From positions 317,798 to 381,797 of the forward strand of contig NZ_JABEKV010000002.1 in the NCBI RefSeq assembly GCF_013283645.1: a DNA stretch of 64,000 nucleotides. The letters are read 5' to 3'. Shown here one piece after another: positions 54,270 to 63,754 of the stretch. A program made the position numbers and the translations under genes. The notes beneath the pieces were generated by a model, which saw only the letters and a list, made by a program, of their open reading frames with translations, was not told where the DNA came from and searched no databases. The DNA is from Sinorhizobium psoraleae (lineage in GTDB: Bacteria; Pseudomonadota; Alphaproteobacteria; Rhizobiales; Rhizobiaceae). Each line of letters starts with the position of its first letter. Within the stretch, counting starts at the first letter, position 1.

Positions 54270-56606
54270 ATGCTCATCGTGCTGACGGCCATTCTCTTCG
54301 CCCTGATCGGTCTTGCGGTCGGTGCCGGAGGAATCAGGCTGCTGATGCTGGGCGGCAGCCCCTACTACCTGCTTGCGGGCCTGGGTTTCCTGCTGACCGC
54401 GTTTTTGCTTTTCCGCCGGCAGGCCGCCGCTCTCTGGGTCTATGCACTCGTCGTCGTGGGCTCTCTCGCCTGGGCCGTCTGGGAGGTCGGCTTCGACTGG
54501 TGGCAACTCGGCCCTCGCGGCGGCATCATCATCCTGCTCGGTCTCTGGCTGCTTACTCCCTGGATCCGACGCCCCCTCGGCTTCGTCAGTCCCTCCGGCG
54601 CGCACTACAGCGCTACGGCATGGCCGCTCGCCGTCGCCAGCCTCGTTTCCATCGGCGTCGCCATATTCGCGATGACGCAGGATCCGCACGATATCCGCGG
54701 CGAGTTGCCGAGCGACGCGGTCGCGGCAAACGCCAACCTCGGCGGAAATGTGCCTCCAGGCGAGTGGCACCAGTACGGCCGCACGCCCTTTGGCCAGCGA
54801 TACTCGCCGCTCGACCAGATCAATGCGGAAAATGTCGCCAACCTCAGGGTCGCATGGCAATACCAGACGGGCGACGTGAAGCGACCAGATGACGTCGGCG
54901 AGACCACCTATCAGGTCACGCCGCTCAAGGTGAAGGACACGCTTTACCTCTGCACGCCGCACAACTGGGCGATCGCGCTCGACGCGGCCACCGGACAGGA
55001 AAAGTGGAAATACGATTCCAACTCCGGCATGAACCCCGACCGCCAGCACCAGACCTGCCGCGGCGTCACCTATTGGGCCGATCCGGCGGCCGCTCCCGGC
55101 GGCCCCTGCGCCGAGCGCGTCTACCTGCCGACCTCCGATGCGCGCCTGATTGCGCTCGACGCCGCAAACGGCGAGGTCTGCACCAGCTTTGCCGACAATG
55201 GCGTCCTGCATCTGGAACAGGGAATGCGGTACAATCCGGCCGGCTATTACTACTCGACGTCGCCGCCGGTCGCGGTCGCCGGCAAGATCATCGTCGGCGG
55301 TGCCGTCAACGACAATTACTCGACGCAGGAGCAATCCGGCGTCATCCGCGCCTTCGACATCAACAGCGGCGCGCTGCTGTGGAACTGGGACAGCGGCAAC
55401 CCCGACCAGACGGCGCCCCTGCCAGCCGGTCAGTTCTACACGACGAATTCCCCGAACAGCTGGTCGGTTTCCTCGGTCGACGAAGGTCTTGGCCTGATCT
55501 ATGTGCCGCTTGGCAACCAGGTGCCGGACCAGCTCGGCATGGGCCGAAGCGAGCATGTCGAGAAATATTCCTCCTCGATCGTCGCCCTCGACATCAACAC
55601 GGGTGCGATGCGCTGGGTACGCCAGACGGTCCACCATGACCTGTGGGACATGGACGTGCCTGCGCAGCCGTCGCTCATCGACATCACCAAGGAGGATGGC
55701 ACGGTCGTGCCGGCGCTCGTCGGGCCGACCAAGCAGGGCGACCTCTATGTACTCGACCGGCGAAGCGGCGAGCCGATCATTCCGGTCGAGGAAGTGGCCG
55801 CACCCGGCGGCGCAATTCCGGAGGACTTCACCGCTCCAACGCAGCCGGTATCCGGCCTCACCTTCATGCCCGCTCCGCTCGAAGAGCACGACATGTGGGG
55901 CATCACCATGTTCGACCAGCTCGCCTGCCGCATCGCCTTCCGGTCGCTGAAATACGAGGGCCGGTATACGCCGCCTTCGCTCGAGGGGACGCTGGTCTAT
56001 CCCGGCAATTTCGGCACCTTCAACTGGGGTTCGGTCGCGGTCGACCCGGAGCGGCAGGTGCTGTTCGGCATGCCGACCTATCTCGCCTTCACGTCCCGGC
56101 TCGTGCCGCGCGACCAGATCCCGCCGAAGCAGGAGGGCGAAACGGGCAGCGAACAGGGCCTGAACCGCAATGAAGGTGCGCCCTATGGGGTCTACATGGG
56201 CCCGTTCCTCGGTCCGCTGCAGATCCCCTGCCAGGCTCCTCCATGGGGCTATGTCGCGGGCGCCGATCTCAGAACCGGCAAGATCGCCTACAAGCACAAG
56301 AACGGCACCGTCTATGACATGACGCCGCTACCGATCCCCTTCAAGCTAGGTGTGCCGGGCATCGGCGGACCGATCATCACCAAGGGCGGCGTTGCCTTCC
56401 TGGGTGCTGCGGTCGACAACTATCTGAGGGCATACGACGTCACCACAGGAAGCCAGCTCTGGGAGACACGGCTGCCGGCAGGCGGGCAGTCGACGCCAAT
56501 GACCTACACCGTCGGCGACAAACAATACGTGCTGATGGTCGCAGGCGGGCACGGTTCGGTCGGCACCAAGCCGGGCGACTACGTCATTGCCTACACCCTG
56601 CCCTGA
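54270..56606 (+). CDS. gcd: Membrane-bound PQQ-dependent glucose dehydrogenase
   Basis: The 778-residue protein begins with five membrane helices (about residues 1-135) and continues as an eight-bladed quinoprotein propeller in the periplasm. Features include GEWHQYGRTPFGQRYSPLDQ, the repeated W motifs and GGVAFLGAAVDNYLRAYDV. It oxidises aldoses to lactones with electrons to ubiquinone. The cofactor PQQ is not made by genes in this window. ATG 54270 has GGGGA nine bases upstream. The gene has a hairpin-rich leader. Confidence 0.96.
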   Translation: MLIVLTAILFALIGLAVGAGGIRLLMLGGSPYYLLAGLGFLLTAFLLFRRQAAALWVYALVVVGSLAWAVWEVGFDWWQLGPRGGIIILLGLWLLTPWIRRPLGFVSPSGAHYSATAWPLAVASLVSIGVAIFAMTQDPHDIRGELPSDAVAANANLGGNVPPGEWHQYGRTPFGQRYSPLDQINAENVANLRVAWQYQTGDVKRPDDVGETTYQVTPLKVKDTLYLCTPHNWAIALDAATGQEKWKYDSNSGMNPDRQHQTCRGVTYWADPAAAPGGPCAERVYLPTSDARLIALDAANGEVCTSFADNGVLHLEQGMRYNPAGYYYSTSPPVAVAGKIIVGGAVNDNYSTQEQSGVIRAFDINSGALLWNWDSGNPDQTAPLPAGQFYTTNSPNSWSVSSVDEGLGLIYVPLGNQVPDQLGMGRSEHVEKYSSSIVALDINTGAMRWVRQTVHHDLWDMDVPAQPSLIDITKEDGTVVPALVGPTKQGDLYVLDRRSGEPIIPVEEVAAPGGAIPEDFTAPTQPVSGLTFMPAPLEEHDMWGITMFDQLACRIAFRSLKYEGRYTPPSLEGTLVYPGNFGTFNWGSVAVDPERQVLFGMPTYLAFTSRLVPRDQIPPKQEGETGSEQGLNRNEGAPYGVYMGPFLGPLQIPCQAPPWGYVAGADLRTGKIAYKHKNGTVYDMTPLPIPFKLGVPGIGGPIITKGGVAFLGAAVDNYLRAYDVTTGSQLWETRLPAGGQSTPMTYTVGDKQYVLMVAGGHGSVGTKPGDYVIAYTLP

Positions 56607-57227: not shown

Positions 57228-58118
57228 TCAAACCATTCCTGCAACAATCTCTCCGACTTCGGCGAAGACGGGATTCAGTTCCTTCACTGGCGCCTTCGCC
57301 TCGGCAATGTAGACCGTTATCAGGATCGGCCCGCGATCCTTTGGCCAGACGACGGCGATGTCCGATGCCGCGCCGGTCGCGCTCGTCCCGGTCTTGTCGC
57401 CGATACGCCAATCCTTCGGCATGCCGGCACGAAGGCGGGCGTCACCGGTCTTGTTGGCGACCATCCAGTCGATGAACTGCATGCGGGAAGTCTCCGACAA
57501 AACCGGGTCGAGCGTCAGGCCGCCGAGGGTTTCAAGCATGGCACCCGGCGTCGTCGTGTCGCGCGGGTCTCCCGGCTTCGCCTCGTTGAGCTCGGGCTCG
57601 GTACGATCAAGCCGGGTCGTCTGATCGTTGATCGATCGCAGCCAGGTCGTCAGCCCTGCCGGTCCACCGAAACTTTCGAGCAGCAGGTTACCTGCGGCGT
57701 TGTCGCTGATCGTAATCGCCGCCTCGCAGAGCTCGGCGACCGTCATGCCATCGCCTCCCACGTACTTCTCCGTTACCGGCGAATAGGGGACCAGTGCGTC
57801 CTTGCCGAATTTGATTCGCCGGTCGAGCTTTTCCTCCCCTCGATCCACACGGGCCAACACACAGGCCGCGGCCAACGCCTTGAAGGTCGAGCACATGGCA
57901 AAGCGCTCGCTTTCCCTGTGGCCGAAGGAGATGTTCGTTTCCGTGTCGAGCACCGCAACGCCGAGGCGGCCGCCGGTGCGCTTTTCGAGTTCGCCGAGCT
58001 GCTTAGAAACATCGTCATTCGTTCCGGCAACGGCGCGCGCCGTGCTCGCCAGAACGAGCGCCGGATAGAGCATCGCAGAGCCGACCAGCATGGTGCGGCG
58101 ATTGATGAAACAGGGCAC
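57228..58118 (-). CDS. Class A beta-lactamase
   Basis: The 296-residue product (GTG at 58118, preceded by GGAGGAAGAAC) has a twin-arginine-type signal (NRRTMLVGS with a hydrophobic run to about residue 30). All active-site motifs are present: Ser77-Thr-Phe-Lys80, Ser138-Asp-Asn140, Glu174-x-x-Leu-Asn178 and Lys242-Thr-Gly244. It hydrolyses penicillin-type drugs in the periplasm. It is chromosomal and has rhizobial base composition, so it looks like a resident gene. No LysR regulator is adjacent. Confidence 0.95.
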   Translation of the reverse strand: MPCFINRRTMLVGSAMLYPALVLASTARAVAGTNDDVSKQLGELEKRTGGRLGVAVLDTETNISFGHRESERFAMCSTFKALAAACVLARVDRGEEKLDRRIKFGKDALVPYSPVTEKYVGGDGMTVAELCEAAITISDNAAGNLLLESFGGPAGLTTWLRSINDQTTRLDRTEPELNEAKPGDPRDTTTPGAMLETLGGLTLDPVLSETSRMQFIDWMVANKTGDARLRAGMPKDWRIGDKTGTSATGAASDIAVVWPKDRGPILITVYIAEAKAPVKELNPVFAEVGEIVAGMV

Positions 58119-58510
58119 GTTCTTCCTCCGTATTGGGCGTGCGGCTTTCGCCACGCACACCTCTAAATTATTGATAGTGAATATGTATTCCCGCCGAGCC
58201 GGCCACGACAAGCGGCGGTTGCGAAGCAAGTCGCTAAGCGGCAAATATGGCGGCCTTGTGCTCGCCCCTGTCGGGACCGCCCCCGCCGTCCGGTTGCGGG
58301 GCGTCGAAAGAAAATGCTATGGCGAAGCCGTTGAAGTTGAAGGACGAGATCCGTGCGCCTCATCCGTTAGCGACGTTAACTGGCAAATCCGAACCGCCGC
58401 TGTACGCGCCCCGCCTCGCGGGCGCTTTCGTGCGGCTGCTTCTGCCAGACCGCGCTAAGGTGCACAAACAAGGACGTGGGCCCCCGGCGGTCGCTTCAAG
58501 GATCAAATTC
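58119..58510. other. Intergenic region between beta-lactamase and alpha/beta hydrolase genes
   Basis: The gap of 392 bases contains the two divergent promoters. AT-rich DNA at 58160-58190 is just upstream of the beta-lactamase start. A frame in phase with the hydrolase is open from 58247, with an in-frame ATG at 58319, but the first part has no hydrolase resemblance. I see no other gene. Confidence 0.45.
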
Positions 58511-59398: not shown

Positions 59399-59502
59399 CT
59401 GCATGTTTCCTTAAGTCGCTGCCGATTTAAGGACAAAAACATGCAGCACTTCAAAGTGCTACAGCGTCATTTGCGCGTCTGATGAGACGCGCGGCGCTGT
59501 AG
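59399..59502 (-). repeat. RIME-like palindromic repeat, copy 7 (inverted)
   Basis: Read on the minus strand it begins CTACAGCGCCGCGCGTCTCA and ends AAACATGCAG. Both arms are complete, with CTGCATGTTTCC..ACATGCAG and CGCGTCT..AGACGCG. It is one of the least decayed copies and sits between the hydrolase and merR genes. Confidence 0.85.
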
Positions 59503-59518
59503 GCCCCTCCCCGCTCTA

Positions 59519-59566
59519 TTGCTGGGAGAATGCCGCCGCCCTATCTAGATACTCCAGCGACTATAG
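59519..59566 (+). promoter_or_regulatory. merR promoter with metal-sensor-like operator
   Basis: TTGCTG (59519-59524), 17 bases, then TATCTA (59542-59547) is a likely promoter. On the minus strand CTATAGTCGCTGGAGT (59566-59551) matches the PbrR/CadR-type operator pattern CTATAGT-N2-CT-N-GAG. The operator covers the predicted start point, suggesting autoregulation of the adjacent merR gene. Confidence 0.4.
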
Positions 59567-59581
59567 ATATGAGGCGACAGC

Positions 59582-59995
59582 ATGTATTCGATCGGCGACC
59601 TCTCCCGCCGCACCGGAGTCAAAATCCCGACCATCCGCTATTACGAACAGATGGGATTGCTCGAGGCACCTGAGCGCTCGGAAGGCAACCAGCGGCGTTA
59701 TGAAAAACGCGAGCTCGAACGACTGGCGTTCATCCGTCATGCGCGCGACCTGGGCCTCTCGATCGAGGCGATCCGCGATCTTCTGGCACTCAGCCAGCAT
59801 CCGGAACGCCCTTGCGGCGAGGCGGACCGCATCGCCACCGAACACCTTGCCTCGGTACGCGAAAAGATCGCCAGACTGCGGAGGCTGGAAAGTGAACTGG
59901 AGCGCATCGTCGCCTGCCATGGCGACCATACGATTGGCGACTGCTACGTGATCCGGGCACTGGCCGACCATTCAATGTGCGGCACCGACCACTGA
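59582..59995 (+). CDS. MerR-family metal-sensor-like regulator
   Basis: The 137-residue protein has the MerR winged helix (IGDLSRRTGVKIPTIRYYEQ), a dimerisation helix and cysteines at 78, 112, 121 and 133. Cys78, Cys112 and Cys121 match in spacing the metal-binding cysteines of PbrR/CadR (Pb/Cd) regulators. No efflux pump gene is next to it, so its target lies elsewhere. A likely operator precedes it. It stands upstream of the attenuated GNAT operon. Confidence 0.9.
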   Translation: MYSIGDLSRRTGVKIPTIRYYEQMGLLEAPERSEGNQRRYEKRELERLAFIRHARDLGLSIEAIRDLLALSQHPERPCGEADRIATEHLASVREKIARLRRLESELERIVACHGDHTIGDCYVIRALADHSMCGTDH

Positions 59996-60025
59996 GATCA
60001 GATCCGCAGGTGCGAGAAATCCCCG

Positions 60026-60054
60026 TTGACAAAATCGCGGAAATGGCGAATCTA
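60026..60054 (+). promoter_or_regulatory. Promoter of the attenuator leader
   Basis: TTGACA (60026-60031) is the perfect -35 consensus; 17 bases follow and AATCTA (60049-60054) is the -10. The start point should fall near 60060-60062, on the AUG of the leader ORF, so the transcript is probably leaderless. Confidence 0.75.
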
Positions 60055-60059
60055 CGCGC

Positions 60060-60110
60060 ATGATCAAGAACGCACCCATCTCCCGCGTGTATTTTTGGCT
60101 GTTCCGATAG
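60060..60110 (+). CDS. Leader peptide of an aromatic-amino-acid attenuator
   Basis: The ATG at 60060 lies at the predicted transcript start and no Shine-Dalgarno site precedes it, so translation would be leaderless. S. meliloti trpL is a known leaderless leader peptide of this kind. The frame is 16 residues: MIKNAPISRVYFWLFR, then TAG at 60108-60110. Tyr11, Phe12, Trp13, Leu14 and Phe15 form a run of codons that would stall ribosomes when charged aromatic tRNAs are scarce. The peptide itself probably has no other role. Confidence 0.7.
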   Translation: MIKNAPISRVYFWLFR

Positions 60111-60164
60111 GAGCGGCCTGCTGATCATATTCAACAAGGCCGCCATCAGGCGGCTTTTGTTTTT
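60061..60164 (+). promoter_or_regulatory. Ribosome-mediated attenuator (leader RNA with alternative stems)
   Basis: GCGGCCT (60113-60119) can pair perfectly with AGGCCGC (60137-60143) to form an antiterminator. That pairing excludes the terminator stem GCCGCC (60139-60144) with GGCGGC (60149-60154). The leader start ATGATCA (60060-60066) can pair with TGATCAT (60121-60127), which would sequester part of the antiterminator when the leader is not translated. A ribosome at the stop codon (60108) would mask 60113-60119 and favour termination, the classic design. It precedes the GNAT and DJ-1/PfpI genes by 39 bases. Confidence 0.7.
60139..60164 (+). terminator. Attenuator terminator
   Basis: GCCGCC (60139-60144), loop ATCA, GGCGGC (60149-60154) and TTTTGTTTTT (60155-60164): a textbook Rho-independent terminator. 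Confidence 0.88.
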
Positions 60165-60202
60165 CACGGCACCTGATGGCGGCAGAACCATAGGAGCCGA
60201 GA

Positions 60203-60706
60203 ATGCTGCAGACCGCCGTCCCTTCCCTTCCTCCCATACCAACGACACGTCCACCGATGGTGACGATCCGTTGCGCCAAACCGCGCGATCTTCCCGAGTT
60301 GCACGAAATGATTGTCGAGCTCGCCGCGCATCACGGTGACGCCGCGCCGATCACGCCGGAACGGCTTGAACGCGACCTCTTCGGCCGCGCCCCCTGGATC
60401 ACGGCGCTTGTCGCCGAAGCCGGCAACCGGTTGATCGGCTACGCCATTCTCGTCCCGACCTACCGGGCGGCCGAGGGCGTACGGGGCATGGAACTGCACC
60501 ACCTCTTCGTCCGGCCCGGCCATCGTGGCACGGGCATCGGCCGCCACCTCGTTGCGAAGGCACGCGAACAGGCGCGCATGGCCGGCTGCGACTATCTTTC
60601 GGTCAGCGCGGCCACCGGCAATTTCCAGGCGCATCGCTTCTACGAATCCGAACGCTTCGTACCTCGACCTGTCACCGGCATGCGCTATATGCAGAAACTT
60701 GGCTGA
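60203..60706 (+). CDS. GNAT-family N-acetyltransferase
   Basis: The 167-residue protein has the GNAT acetyl-CoA motif in LFVRPGHRGTGIGRHLVAKA (residues about 99-118), a preceding beta-4 strand GVRGMELHH and a C-terminal ATGNFQAHRFYESERF. It transfers acetyl groups to an amine, possibly an amino acid or small molecule. The AGGAG at 60192 is six bases upstream of the ATG at 60203. An aromatic-type attenuator precedes it, so the substrate could be linked to aromatic amino acids; that is an inference. It is 12 bases upstream of the DJ-1/PfpI gene. Confidence 0.92.
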   Translation: MLQTAVPSLPPIPTTRPPMVTIRCAKPRDLPELHEMIVELAAHHGDAAPITPERLERDLFGRAPWITALVAEAGNRLIGYAILVPTYRAAEGVRGMELHHLFVRPGHRGTGIGRHLVAKAREQARMAGCDYLSVSAATGNFQAHRFYESERFVPRPVTGMRYMQKLG

Positions 60707-60718
60707 ACGGGAGGGCTC

Positions 60719-61300
60719 ATGCGCCTCGCAATCGTTCTGACAGAAGGCTTTGCCGACTGGGAATGCGCGCTGCTGATGGCTACGGCGCGCACCGAGCTCG
60801 GTCTCGACGTGCTGATCGCCACGCCCGGTGGCACAGTGGTGACGTCGATGGGCGGCCTTCACATCACGCCGCACCTGCCGACGAAAACCCTGGCGCCGGC
60901 GGAGTTCGACGCTCTCGTGCTCTGTGGTGGTTCAACCTGGGAAACCGCCGCCGCCCCCAATCTCACCGCGACGATCCGCGCCTTCCATGCGGAAGACCGC
61001 GTCGTCGCGGGGATTTGCGGCGCAACGCTTGCGCTTGCCGCCAGCGGCATTCTCAACGAGGCGGACCATACGGGCAACTCGGCGGAAAGCCTTTCGGCGG
61101 TGGCCGGCTATCACGGGCACGAGCACTATCGCGAGCAGCCGCAGGCAGTTCGAAGCGGCCGGCTGGTGACGGCTGCGGGCACTGCCCCGATCAGCTTTAC
61201 GGCCGAGATTTTTCACGCCCTCGGTGTCGGCTCCGAGGCGCTTGACGAATATCTCTCCCTCTACGGCAAGGAGCACGCGGCCGTTCAAGCCGCACGATAG
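60719..61300 (+). CDS. DJ-1/PfpI family protein
   Basis: The 193-residue protein has the DJ-1/PfpI fold: the nucleophile elbow GICGATLAL with Cys100, a conserved Glu15 (ADWECALLM) and the nearby His (GYHGHEHY). Such proteins can be glutamine amidotransferase-like hydrolases, chaperones or transcription-linked enzymes; this one resembles a small hydrolase or amidase. GGGAGGG is well placed before ATG 60719. It shares an operon with the GNAT gene and is convergent with the cytochrome gene. Confidence 0.93.
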   Translation: MRLAIVLTEGFADWECALLMATARTELGLDVLIATPGGTVVTSMGGLHITPHLPTKTLAPAEFDALVLCGGSTWETAAAPNLTATIRAFHAEDRVVAGICGATLALAASGILNEADHTGNSAESLSAVAGYHGHEHYREQPQAVRSGRLVTAAGTAPISFTAEIFHALGVGSEALDEYLSLYGKEHAAVQAAR

Positions 61301-61316
61301 TGCCGTTCCAGAGCCT

Positions 61317-62231
61317 TCAAAGCGCCGGGATGGCCTTCAGGTAGGCGGCAATAGCCTCGCGGTCGGAGGGCGAAAGCTTCGCCAGGTTCTTCTGTACATC
61401 GACCATCGAACCGCCGACCGTATCGAATTCCGGCGTGAAGCCGGTCTCCAGATAGGAGGCAATGTCGGATGCACTCCAACTGCCGATGCTCCTCGAGCCC
61501 GGCGTGATGTCGGGAATACGACCTTCCCCTTCGGGATTCGGCGCGCCGGCCAACCATCTATCCGGCTCGAACCCGCCGAGCGCGTTGCGCGGCGTGTGGC
61601 ACTCGCCGCAGTGGCCGGGCCCTTCGACGAGATACTGCCCGCGGGCGAGCTTCGCGTCAGCCGTATTCACCTCGGCGCGCGGTTCGTCGGTTAAGAACAG
61701 CAGCTTCCAGGCGCCGAGCGCCATGCGGACATTATAAGGGAACGGCAAGTCATGCGGCGGCGCCACGTTGCTGCTCTTCGGCAGCGTCTGCAGATATCCC
61801 CAGAGATCGTTGATGTCCTTGGCGGTCATGCGCGCATAGGAGCCGTAAGGGAATGATGGGTAAAGGTGCTCGCCATTTTTTCCGACGCCGCGCGTCATGG
61901 CGTTGCCGAACTCCGCAAGCGTCCAGTCACCGATGCCGGCGCTTTCATCGGGCGAAATGTTCGGAATATTGAAAGTACCGAAAGGACTTTTCAGCGCCCG
62001 ACCGCCAGCAAGCACGAGCCGGGCATCATCCTTCGCTCCCGGCGCGGCGTGACAACTGACGCAGCCGCCGGCCCAGAAGACCTGCTCGCCATTGGCGAGA
62101 TCCGGTTCGCCAAGTCCTTGCCAATGGGCTTCGTCCCACGGCGCAGGTTTCGTCAGCCACCAAAAAACGCCGGCGCCGGCAAGCGCCAGCACGACCAGAC
62201 CGGATAGCAGTTTCGTTGTTCGCCGGCCCAT
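61317..62231 (-). CDS. Diheme c-type cytochrome
   Basis: The 304-residue protein has a signal anchor (about 8-28), one heme motif CVSCH (Cys57, Cys60, His61) and a second CGECH near residue 205 with GHCGECHTPRNALGGFEPD. The axial Met ligands are probably in NIPNISPDESAGIGDWT-type loops; one typical Met segment is MTRGVGKNGEHLYPSFPYGS. It carries electrons in the periplasm, perhaps for a dehydrogenase or a terminal acceptor. ATG 62231 has GGGAGG four bases upstream. It is downstream of a cytochrome c'-type gene. Confidence 0.93.
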   Translation of the reverse strand: MGRRTTKLLSGLVVLALAGAGVFWWLTKPAPWDEAHWQGLGEPDLANGEQVFWAGGCVSCHAAPGAKDDARLVLAGGRALKSPFGTFNIPNISPDESAGIGDWTLAEFGNAMTRGVGKNGEHLYPSFPYGSYARMTAKDINDLWGYLQTLPKSSNVAPPHDLPFPYNVRMALGAWKLLFLTDEPRAEVNTADAKLARGQYLVEGPGHCGECHTPRNALGGFEPDRWLAGAPNPEGEGRIPDITPGSRSIGSWSASDIASYLETGFTPEFDTVGGSMVDVQKNLAKLSPSDREAIAAYLKAIPAL

Positions 62232-62984: not shown

Positions 62985-63623
62985 CTACCGGGCACCTGCC
63001 CAACCCTGCCATACGGTCAAGACCGCAACTATGACCAGCACGACGCCGGCAGCCCGTCCGATCGCCACTGTTGCGCCCGGACTGCCGACAAGCAGGTCAC
63101 GGCCGCGCCCGGCGGCAAGGGCTAGCCCGCCATAGACGGCAAGCTGCGTAAACGCGATCATCAGCGCCATGACGGCCGCTTGCGACCAGACCGGACCGAA
63201 TTGCGGCTTCAGGAACTGCGGATAGACAGCCAGCATGAAGAGATAGGCCTTGGGATTCATCAGGCTTGTCAGCGCGCCCTGGCGAAAGCTCGCCCAGCGC
63301 GACAGGTGCACAGCCTTTTCGATGCCGCCGATCGTGATCGAACTGCGTAAAAGCGAGAAGCCGATCCAGGCGATGTAAAGGGCACCGGCGACAAGCAGTA
63401 CGTTGAAGAGCTGCGGCACCAGATGCAGGACGACGCTGACGCCGAGCGCGGCATAGAGCGTATGCAGCACGCCGCCGGCCATGATGCCGGCCGTTGCCGA
63501 CAGGCCGGACGCCCGTCCGCCGGTCAACGAATTGGCCAGGACGAAGACCATGTCCATGCCGGGCACGATGATGATGCCGAAGAGAAGGGTGAAGAAAAGC
63601 CAGAGGTTTTCCGTGTAGCTCAT
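62985..63623 (-). CDS. LysE/RhtB-family amino-acid exporter
   Basis: The product of about 212 residues has six membrane helices with the LysE/RhtB signature PGMDMVFVLANSLTGGRASGL (shortened view) and NPKAYLFMLAVYPQFL in the middle. It exports amino acids or related compounds across the inner membrane. ATG 63623 begins MSYTENLWLFF; a longer start at 63647 is possible. It is divergent from the regulator at 63755, which may control it. Confidence 0.9.
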   Translation of the reverse strand: MSYTENLWLFFTLLFGIIIVPGMDMVFVLANSLTGGRASGLSATAGIMAGGVLHTLYAALGVSVVLHLVPQLFNVLLVAGALYIAWIGFSLLRSSITIGGIEKAVHLSRWASFRQGALTSLMNPKAYLFMLAVYPQFLKPQFGPVWSQAAVMALMIAFTQLAVYGGLALAAGRGRDLLVGSPGATVAIGRAAGVVLVIVAVLTVWQGWAGAR

Positions 63624-63754
63624 GTCAGTTGTCCGTGAGATTTCCATGTGACGGGTGGGCGGATTGTCGATTCTTCAATCCGTTGACACGTGTTATACCG
63701 CCCTACAACTGACAGGGATTTGTCAGGAGGCTTTGAGGCGACGGAGGTTTTTTC

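Follow-up and report, generated by a model that had tools for sequence, protein, structure and literature searches.

The gene at 60203–60706 (+) of the window, by which we mean the whole 64,000-nt stretch of Sinorhizobium psoraleae DNA that was analysed, encodes a GNAT N-acetyltransferase (PF00583) and is preceded by a short open reading frame with consecutive aromatic codons, an arrangement that raises the question of what this leader senses and how the signal might reach the acetyltransferase gene. Overall, our analysis makes it probable that the N-acetyltransferase is controlled by a leaderless, ribosome-mediated attenuator for charged tRNA-Tyr, tRNA-Phe, and tRNA-Trp that carries a second, translational lock. 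Specifically, comparison of related leaders renders it very likely that the element is an attenuator sensing aromatic tRNA, and we favour, with less assurance, a second lock with kinetic release that would act in vivo. What the data support directly is the anatomy of the leader, the conservation of its sensor codons, the covariation of the competing helices, and a correspondence between the codons of a leader and the gene behind it.

With respect to anatomy, direct reading places a −35 box, TTGACA, at 60026–60031 (+) and, after a 17-nt spacer, a −10 box, AATCTA, at 60049–60054 (+), the latter being largely conserved in the genus alignment. A pattern scanner listed no promoter at the leader; for the sixth position of the −10 hexamer it demands a T, which AATCTA does not have. 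The ATG at 60060 is also the predicted transcript start, and the open reading frame that it opens (MIKNAPISRVYFWLFR; 60060–60110, +, with its TAG stop at 60108–60110) is predicted to be leaderless. A distance of 34–36 nt from TTGAC to the ATG, as found in 133/139 GNAT loci, fits a leaderless start. The sensor codons UAU (60090), UUU (60093), and UGG (60096), encoding Tyr, Phe, and Trp, span 60090–60098 (+) and are followed by CUG, UUC, and CGA before the UAG at 60108. The run Tyr-Phe-Trp-Leu-Phe named in the original prediction is present, with the minor qualification that an Arg codon (CGA) intervenes between the last Phe and the stop. At the other end of the leader, AGGAG (60192–60196) lies six nt 5′ of the GNAT ATG at 60203. 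Direct reading bore out the location of every element originally listed (TTGACA, the 17-nt spacer, AATCTA, the ATG, the open reading frame, the stems, and AGGAG).

Several mutually competing helices can be drawn through this region. The helix P0, which closes off the AUG, joins 60060–60066 (+) to 60122–60128 (+), as seen in structure strings, the predicted fold, and the swap test described below. The fold and the swap test likewise support segment 1 (60097–60105, +), which overlaps the Trp-Leu-Phe codons. Segment 2 (60110–60119, +) has two partners: 60110–60118 can pair with segment 1, and GCGGCCT at 60113–60119 with segment 3, AGGCCGC (60137–60143, +; direct reading, fold, swap test). An intrinsic terminator formed by segments 3 and 4 occupies 60136–60164 (+; scanner, fold, swap test), with the hairpin called by the pattern scanner at 60136–60157 and the U-run extending to about 60164, so that the predicted terminated RNA (60060–60164) is ~105 nt. 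The left arm and loop of this terminator (60139–60150, +) share 12 bp of complementarity with segment 5 (CCTGATGGCGGC; 60172–60183, +; aligned-pair count, swap test, fold), which we regard as the switch strand. Finally, an anti-Shine-Dalgarno arm (CGGC.CCT.ATGG; 60167–60179, +; swap test 0/10000, fold) faces segment 6 (CCAT AGG A GCCG; 60188–60199, +; swap test, fold), which includes the GNAT Shine-Dalgarno sequence; this is the 5:6 helix.

The leader is strongly conserved. The predicted fold of 60061–60202 has z = −3.56, and 0/200 shuffles were as low. Within the genus, a strong GNAT match (E 8.3e-94 or better) was obtained in 33/33 genomes, the source genome included, and the leader was present 5′ of the gene in all 30 of the loci returned from that 33-genome search. 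Codons 11–16 and the stop, which contain the sensor codons, are invariant at 21/21 alignment columns in these 30 loci, as are 49/54 columns across 60111–60164, compared with only 19/167 third-codon positions of the GNAT gene itself (28 genus loci); this conservation rules out the leader as a chance feature. The source genome yielded no further strong copy, its next match having an E of 0.224 over 24 bases.

Beyond the genus, the leader was found in 80/80 GTDB loci (the best 80 of 110 relatives), those named including Ensifer/Sinorhizobium, Rhizobium, Pararhizobium, Agrobacterium, and Peteryoungia. A covariance model (R1) built from 40 of these 80 GNAT leaders gave 108 matches at E ≤ 3e-5 in 394 Rhizobiaceae genomes, weaker matches there mostly covering just the terminator. 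When the GNAT protein was searched for independently in these 394 genomes, 101 of them had it (E ≤ 1e-30), and all 101 orthologues have the leader, 100 of them within 120 nt and one (G335) at 122 nt. For codon counts we used 139 GNAT leaders, a set in which some genomes are counted from two collections and from which the 30 genus loci were left out. Tyr, Phe, and Trp all occur in 138/139, and Tyr-Phe starts exactly six codons 5′ of the stop, again in 138/139. In 137 leaders Trp adjoins Tyr-Phe, either as YFW (112) or as WYF (25, exemplified by Pararhizobium MIRTANIARWYFTLLP). Only L188, without Trp, and L189, with WFYY, depart from this. A Trp that shifts between YFW and WYF preserves the codon set and not the RNA position, which would make sense if it is the codons that matter. 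The N-terminal half of the leader peptide is, meanwhile, highly variable.

The helices were assessed with a swap test, in which each arm was paired with its own or with other leaders' partners over 10000 permutations. The 31 leaders used (36 minus 5 near-duplicates, at an 86 percent similarity cut-off over the part 3′ of the leader stop) comprised 21 window-type GNAT, 4 distant GNAT, 3 tyrS, 1 tyrA-like, 1 trpS, and 1 S4 leader. For every helix tested, 0/10000 permutations were as low as the observed value, with z-scores of −4.7 (P0), −7.9 (1:2), −4.9 (2:3), −4.9 (3:4), −7.1 (loop:5), and −8.2 (5:6), values that are corrected for relatedness between leaders in part only. The leader's own pair was better than the median swap in 21/31 (P0), 29/31 (1:2), 19/31 (2:3), 22/31 (3:4), 29/31 (loop:5), and 28/31 (anti-Shine-Dalgarno with Shine-Dalgarno) cases. 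P0 was weaker, with 147/5000 permutations as low, in a set of 24 leaders (154 leaders minus 24 with uncertain gene starts or ends, giving 130, dereplicated at 86 percent to 24). Antiterminator 2:3 and terminator 3:4 are thus both covarying and mutually exclusive, and the earlier proposal that the pairing GCGGCCT/AGGCCGC (60113–60119 with 60137–60143) excludes the terminator is borne out. The conservation in relatives that had been put forward as a check likewise holds, in that the sensor codons are conserved and the alternative stems covary.

Counts at fixed alignment positions gave a more mixed picture. For the 3:5 pairing in 40 aligned sequences (alignment A2), with 9 of the 12 pairs counted, 359/359 cells were paired, and sliding the alignment by 1–3 columns left at most 53.2 percent paired. 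Two-sided changes were seen at 2 pairs, a number matched by 6/500 shuffles, and the further pair types in 3:5 were equalled in 500/500 shuffles. The fixed-register count for 1:2 gave 80 percent paired with no excess over shuffles, which we put down to clades with different registers. Changes in the two arms of 5:6 can be read from the sequences, the window having CGGCaCCT opposite AGGaGCCG, the R. tropici group GCGTCCT opposite AGGACGC, Peteryoungia ACTTTCCC opposite GGGAAAGT, and the family of G980 CCTCCGG opposite CCGGAGG.

Predicted folding of the window RNA was then considered state by state. With no ribosome, 1:2 has a probability of 1.0 and 3:4 of 0.96. Masking of segment 1 before segment 4 has been made gives 2:3 a probability of 0.95. 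At equilibrium, 2:3 reaches 0.35–0.36 and 3:4 reaches 0.67 if the ribosome is stalled at UAU or UUU; the values become 0.05 and 0.92, respectively, if it is stalled at UGG. Antitermination would therefore need co-transcriptional order. A similar consideration applies downstream. With 2:3 formed and the Shine-Dalgarno sequence not yet made, loop:5 has a probability of 1.0. In the read-through RNA the 5:6 stems have probabilities of 0.95, 0.93, and 0.83, and once the Shine-Dalgarno sequence is present 5:6 prevails in the window RNA whether or not 2:3 has formed (with 2:3, stems of 1.0, 0.98, and 0.87), so that release in the window and its genus could only be kinetic. Across the 31 leaders, taking 2:3 as formed raised mean modelled Shine-Dalgarno accessibility from 0.22 to 0.44, with an increase of more than 0.02 in 22, a change within 0.02 in 7, and a decrease in 2.

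We infer the starvation response, the folding order, and the translational release as follows. With aromatic tRNAs charged, translation would proceed to the leader stop, leaving the ribosome over segment 2, or 1:2 would form in untranslated RNA; in either case terminator 3:4 would then form, and any read-through transcripts that leak past it would have their Shine-Dalgarno sequence closed by 5:6. A ribosome stalled at UAU, UUU, or UGG would instead cover segment 1, so that 2:3 could form ahead of the synthesis of segment 4 and read-through by RNA polymerase would follow. The terminator loop freed in this way would capture segment 5 during its synthesis, 5:6 would be delayed or prevented, and the Shine-Dalgarno sequence would be left open. 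One stalled ribosome could, on this arrangement of sequences, gate both termination and translation.

A simpler explanation, which retains a real if minority share of the probability, is that the element is a transcription attenuator only, with segment 5 and the Shine-Dalgarno hairpin serving to stabilise or insulate the mRNA and with no switch between them. Classical trp attenuators need no second lock, all modelled read-through states of the window RNA keep the 5:6 hairpin closed at equilibrium, and some loop:5 pairing also arises with shuffled sequence (a shuffled segment 5 gives a mean of 6.6 pairs, against an observed median of 9.2). Against this stand the strong swap-test scores of both loop:5 and 5:6, two helices that compete with each other, and the joint change of terminator-loop bases with segment 5. 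It is improbable, by comparison, that the leader acts mainly as a trans-acting small RNA or peptide in the manner of rnTrpL/peTrpL, with control of the GNAT in cis being secondary. The predicted ~105-nt RNA would begin with ATG, as S. meliloti rnTrpL does according to PMC7298713 and PMC10117765, but the element stays with the GNAT at 101/101 orthologues, and its 3′ helices extend into the GNAT Shine-Dalgarno sequence, which a trans-acting RNA would not need.

Building on the preferred reading of a dual attenuator, we turn to related leaders that precede other genes. The 7 of the 108 Rhizobiaceae R1 matches that do not belong to GNAT orthologues represent a second leader type, with Tyr-Tyr in all 6 sequences inspected. 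Six of the 7 precede tyrS (in one case in two frames and in another shortened) and at the seventh the gene is lost, G364 being judged by coordinates only. The tyrS in question is an extra copy, as another tyrS occurs in every genome of that Rhizobiaceae set, and in 13/13 genomes checked, the source genome among them, the 350 nt 5′ of the housekeeping tyrS contain no leader ORF with an aromatic dipeptide. Leaders of second tyrS copies read YY or YFYY. TTGAC is absent 5′ of 7/11 tyrS leaders, so that the leaderless layout may not hold for the tyrS type. We also observed that L179 (G126) has no tyrS after its Tyr-Tyr leader, that in L176 (G428) the copy is split into two frames, and that in L181 (G019) just its first part is left; this copy therefore looks dispensable.

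Outside Rhizobiaceae, a search of the order (297 genomes, E ≤ 1e-3) gave 8 full-length matches, 5 before tyrS and 3 before prephenate-dehydrogenase-like (tyrA-like) genes, the latter with Tyr-Tyr leaders. A class-wide search (385 genomes, E ≤ 0.002) added 7 full-length matches: a tyrS behind a Tyr-Phe leader (L279), four diverged GNATs, of a group with WYF leaders, at 27–38 percent identity to the window GNAT (L280, L282, L283, and L284), a free-standing S4-like ORF whose leader reads Trp-Tyr-Phe (L281), and a trpS whose leader reads Trp-Trp (L287), in a genome with two trpS genes of which the lower-scoring one has the leader. In L281 (oriented 1501 onward) the small ORF weakly matches S4 and the TyrRS C-terminal domain, neither match attaining the Pfam cut-off. 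Relatives of G980 yielded 28 full-length matches, 24 of which were examined here, with L283 treated separately. A WYF leader lies 5′ of an ORF resembling the L283 GNAT in 23 of these 24, and in the remaining one (L315) no WYF leader with a GNAT-like ORF was shown. A plasmid search with the distant GNAT gave no match.

Taken as a group, the leader codons appear largely to track the regulated gene, with Tyr-Tyr before Tyr genes, Trp-Trp before trpS, and the Tyr-Phe-Trp mix before GNATs, the exceptions being L279 (tyrS, Tyr-Phe) and L281 (S4-like ORF, Trp-Tyr-Phe). In most of the tyrS, tyrA-like, and trpS relatives the gene serves the leader amino acid, and such tracking would be as in ribosome-mediated attenuation. 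The presence of related leaders before tyrS, tyrA-like, and trpS genes thereby strengthens the interpretation as an aromatic aminoacyl-tRNA attenuator, which had been proposed originally and which the conserved codons and covarying stems also support; what the original account missed was the second covarying, translational lock (loop:5 versus 5:6). Related elements before second TyrRS and TrpRS copies further suggest an undescribed aromatic-charging stress regulon in Alphaproteobacteria.

In terms of known systems, enterobacterial Trp/Phe-type attenuators combine tandem cognate codons with mutually exclusive stems, features shared by the present element, which has a cognate codon cluster near the leader stop in 138/139 GNAT leaders. 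It differs from the enterobacterial type, in which the leader ORF is equipped with a ribosome binding site and the target is a biosynthetic or synthetase gene. Another counterpart is the leaderless attenuator trpL of S. meliloti (PMC7298713 and PMC10117765), whose arrangement before trpE(G) (rnTrpL/peTrpL) is described in PMC7298713 as a leaderless short ORF with cognate codons near the stop and an antiterminator/terminator pair. As a positive control, we recovered the known trpL leader 5′ of trpE(G) in the relative L275. Unlike the window leader, with its Tyr-Phe-Trp codons, no Trp run, and a GNAT target, trpL has Trp codons only and a biosynthetic target; the covarying Shine-Dalgarno lock is a further feature of the present element, for which the trpE(G) leaders were compared by eye only. 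A precedent for such a lock is provided by tlrB (yxjB) of Bacillus subtilis, where, according to PMC6851288, stalling on one leader peptide releases a terminator as well as a hairpin that sequesters the Shine-Dalgarno sequence, as is proposed here, and a hairpin of the latter kind is found in our read-through RNA by predicted fold and swap test. In tlrB, however, the stall is induced by tylosin at RYR, PMC6851288 describes no antiterminator that overlaps, and it is the stalled ribosome that keeps the structures from forming, whereas here a chain of alternative helices would act.

That our leaders respond instead to drug- or nascent-peptide-induced stalling, as erm or tlrB leaders do, with the GNAT as a drug resistance enzyme, is very unlikely: the documented dual transcription/translation leader, B. 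subtilis tlrB (PMC6851288), is indeed drug-induced and GNATs include antibiotic acetyltransferases (the NCBIfam matches here being weak and below cut-off), but the R/K-X-R/K arrest motif occurs in 5/139 GNAT leaders and within the last four residues in 0/139, on which ground macrolide-type arrest was rejected, the N-terminal residues of the leader vary widely, and the tyrS, tyrA-like, and trpS leaders mostly carry matching amino acid codons, fitting tRNA sensing.

No Rfam family reached its gathering score across 59400–61400, the best hits overlapping the leader scoring 16.4 and 18.5 bits against cut-offs of 50 and 55, and Rfam searches of L177, L190, L283, L103, and L086 returned only a cobalamin riboswitch elsewhere in L086. 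A search of the open-access literature, outside which most subscription papers lie, found no description of such an element, and no paper under the Atu gene names was found there. The element is real, conventional in principle, and, as far as these searches reach, new in design and distribution. If the mechanism is as proposed, an attenuator would read three aromatic tRNAs at once and employ a covarying RNA relay from transcription to translation. More tentatively, it may typify a class-wide alphaproteobacterial RNA family in which a stall is relayed via four alternative helices (2:3, 3:4, loop:5, and 5:6) to termination and translation. The genes guarded would be ones that safeguard the charging of aromatic tRNAs, namely extra TyrRS and TrpRS copies, tyrA-like enzymes, and a GNAT that inactivates toxic analogues of aromatic amino acids or synthetase inhibitors.

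With respect to the genes controlled, the claim of a GNAT-DJ-1/PfpI operon stands for the GNAT, the constant partner of the leader at 101/101 orthologues, and not for DJ-1 as a constant part. The DJ-1/PfpI gene (PF01965; 60719–61300, +) is a variably present second gene, found in the ~3-kb flank of only 40/80 GTDB loci (best 80 of 110; in L096 not adjacent) and not annotated next to the GNAT in S. meliloti Ak57; its candidacy as the regulated core was rejected on the 40/80 count. As originally noted, no biosynthetic gene follows; the operon contains no aromatic pathway gene, a point that weighs against the attenuator reading, and the original conjecture was that it may acetylate or degrade aromatic compounds. 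The closest solved structures to the GNAT by sequence are 2fe7, 12jc, and 2bei, of the SSAT/thialysine N-acetyltransferase group, and the best fold match is 2fe7 (TM 0.77; model pLDDT 87.8). This group is nearest in both sequence and fold, yet identity over the seven best fold matches is only 26–33 percent, and NCBIfam gave matches below cut-off only. Thialysine/diamine acetyltransferases acetylate small amines, among them one toxic amino acid analogue. The window enzyme might, though we hold this loosely, serve in detoxification by acetylating a small amine; toxic analogues of aromatic amino acids, or inhibitors of a synthetase, would be candidates. Given that related switches also precede second synthetase copies, protecting the charging of aromatic tRNAs would be the simplest theme common to these copies and the GNAT, a conjecture of similarly modest standing. 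For a constant partner whose substrate is a matter of conjecture, the logic of the leader would point to the stress to apply and the compounds to try.

Several neighbours of the leader are also worth recording. A MerR-family regulator gene lies 5′ of it (59582–59995, +) and occurs in the flank of 63/80 GTDB loci (best 80 of 110). The intergenic stretch 5′ of this MerR gene (59401–59530, +) is palindromic, with a weak Rfam match to BASRCI27 (24.9 bits against a gathering score of 59.8). An ORF at 62985–63647 (−) corresponds by position to a LysE family translocator annotated in S. meliloti Ak57, a possible amino acid exporter near the GNAT. The gene at 54270–56606 (+) is, by position, the counterpart of a glucose/quinate/shikimate PQQ dehydrogenase annotated in the same strain, shikimate being an aromatic precursor, and a class A beta-lactamase gene (NCBIfam NF033103) is located at 57228–58244 (−).
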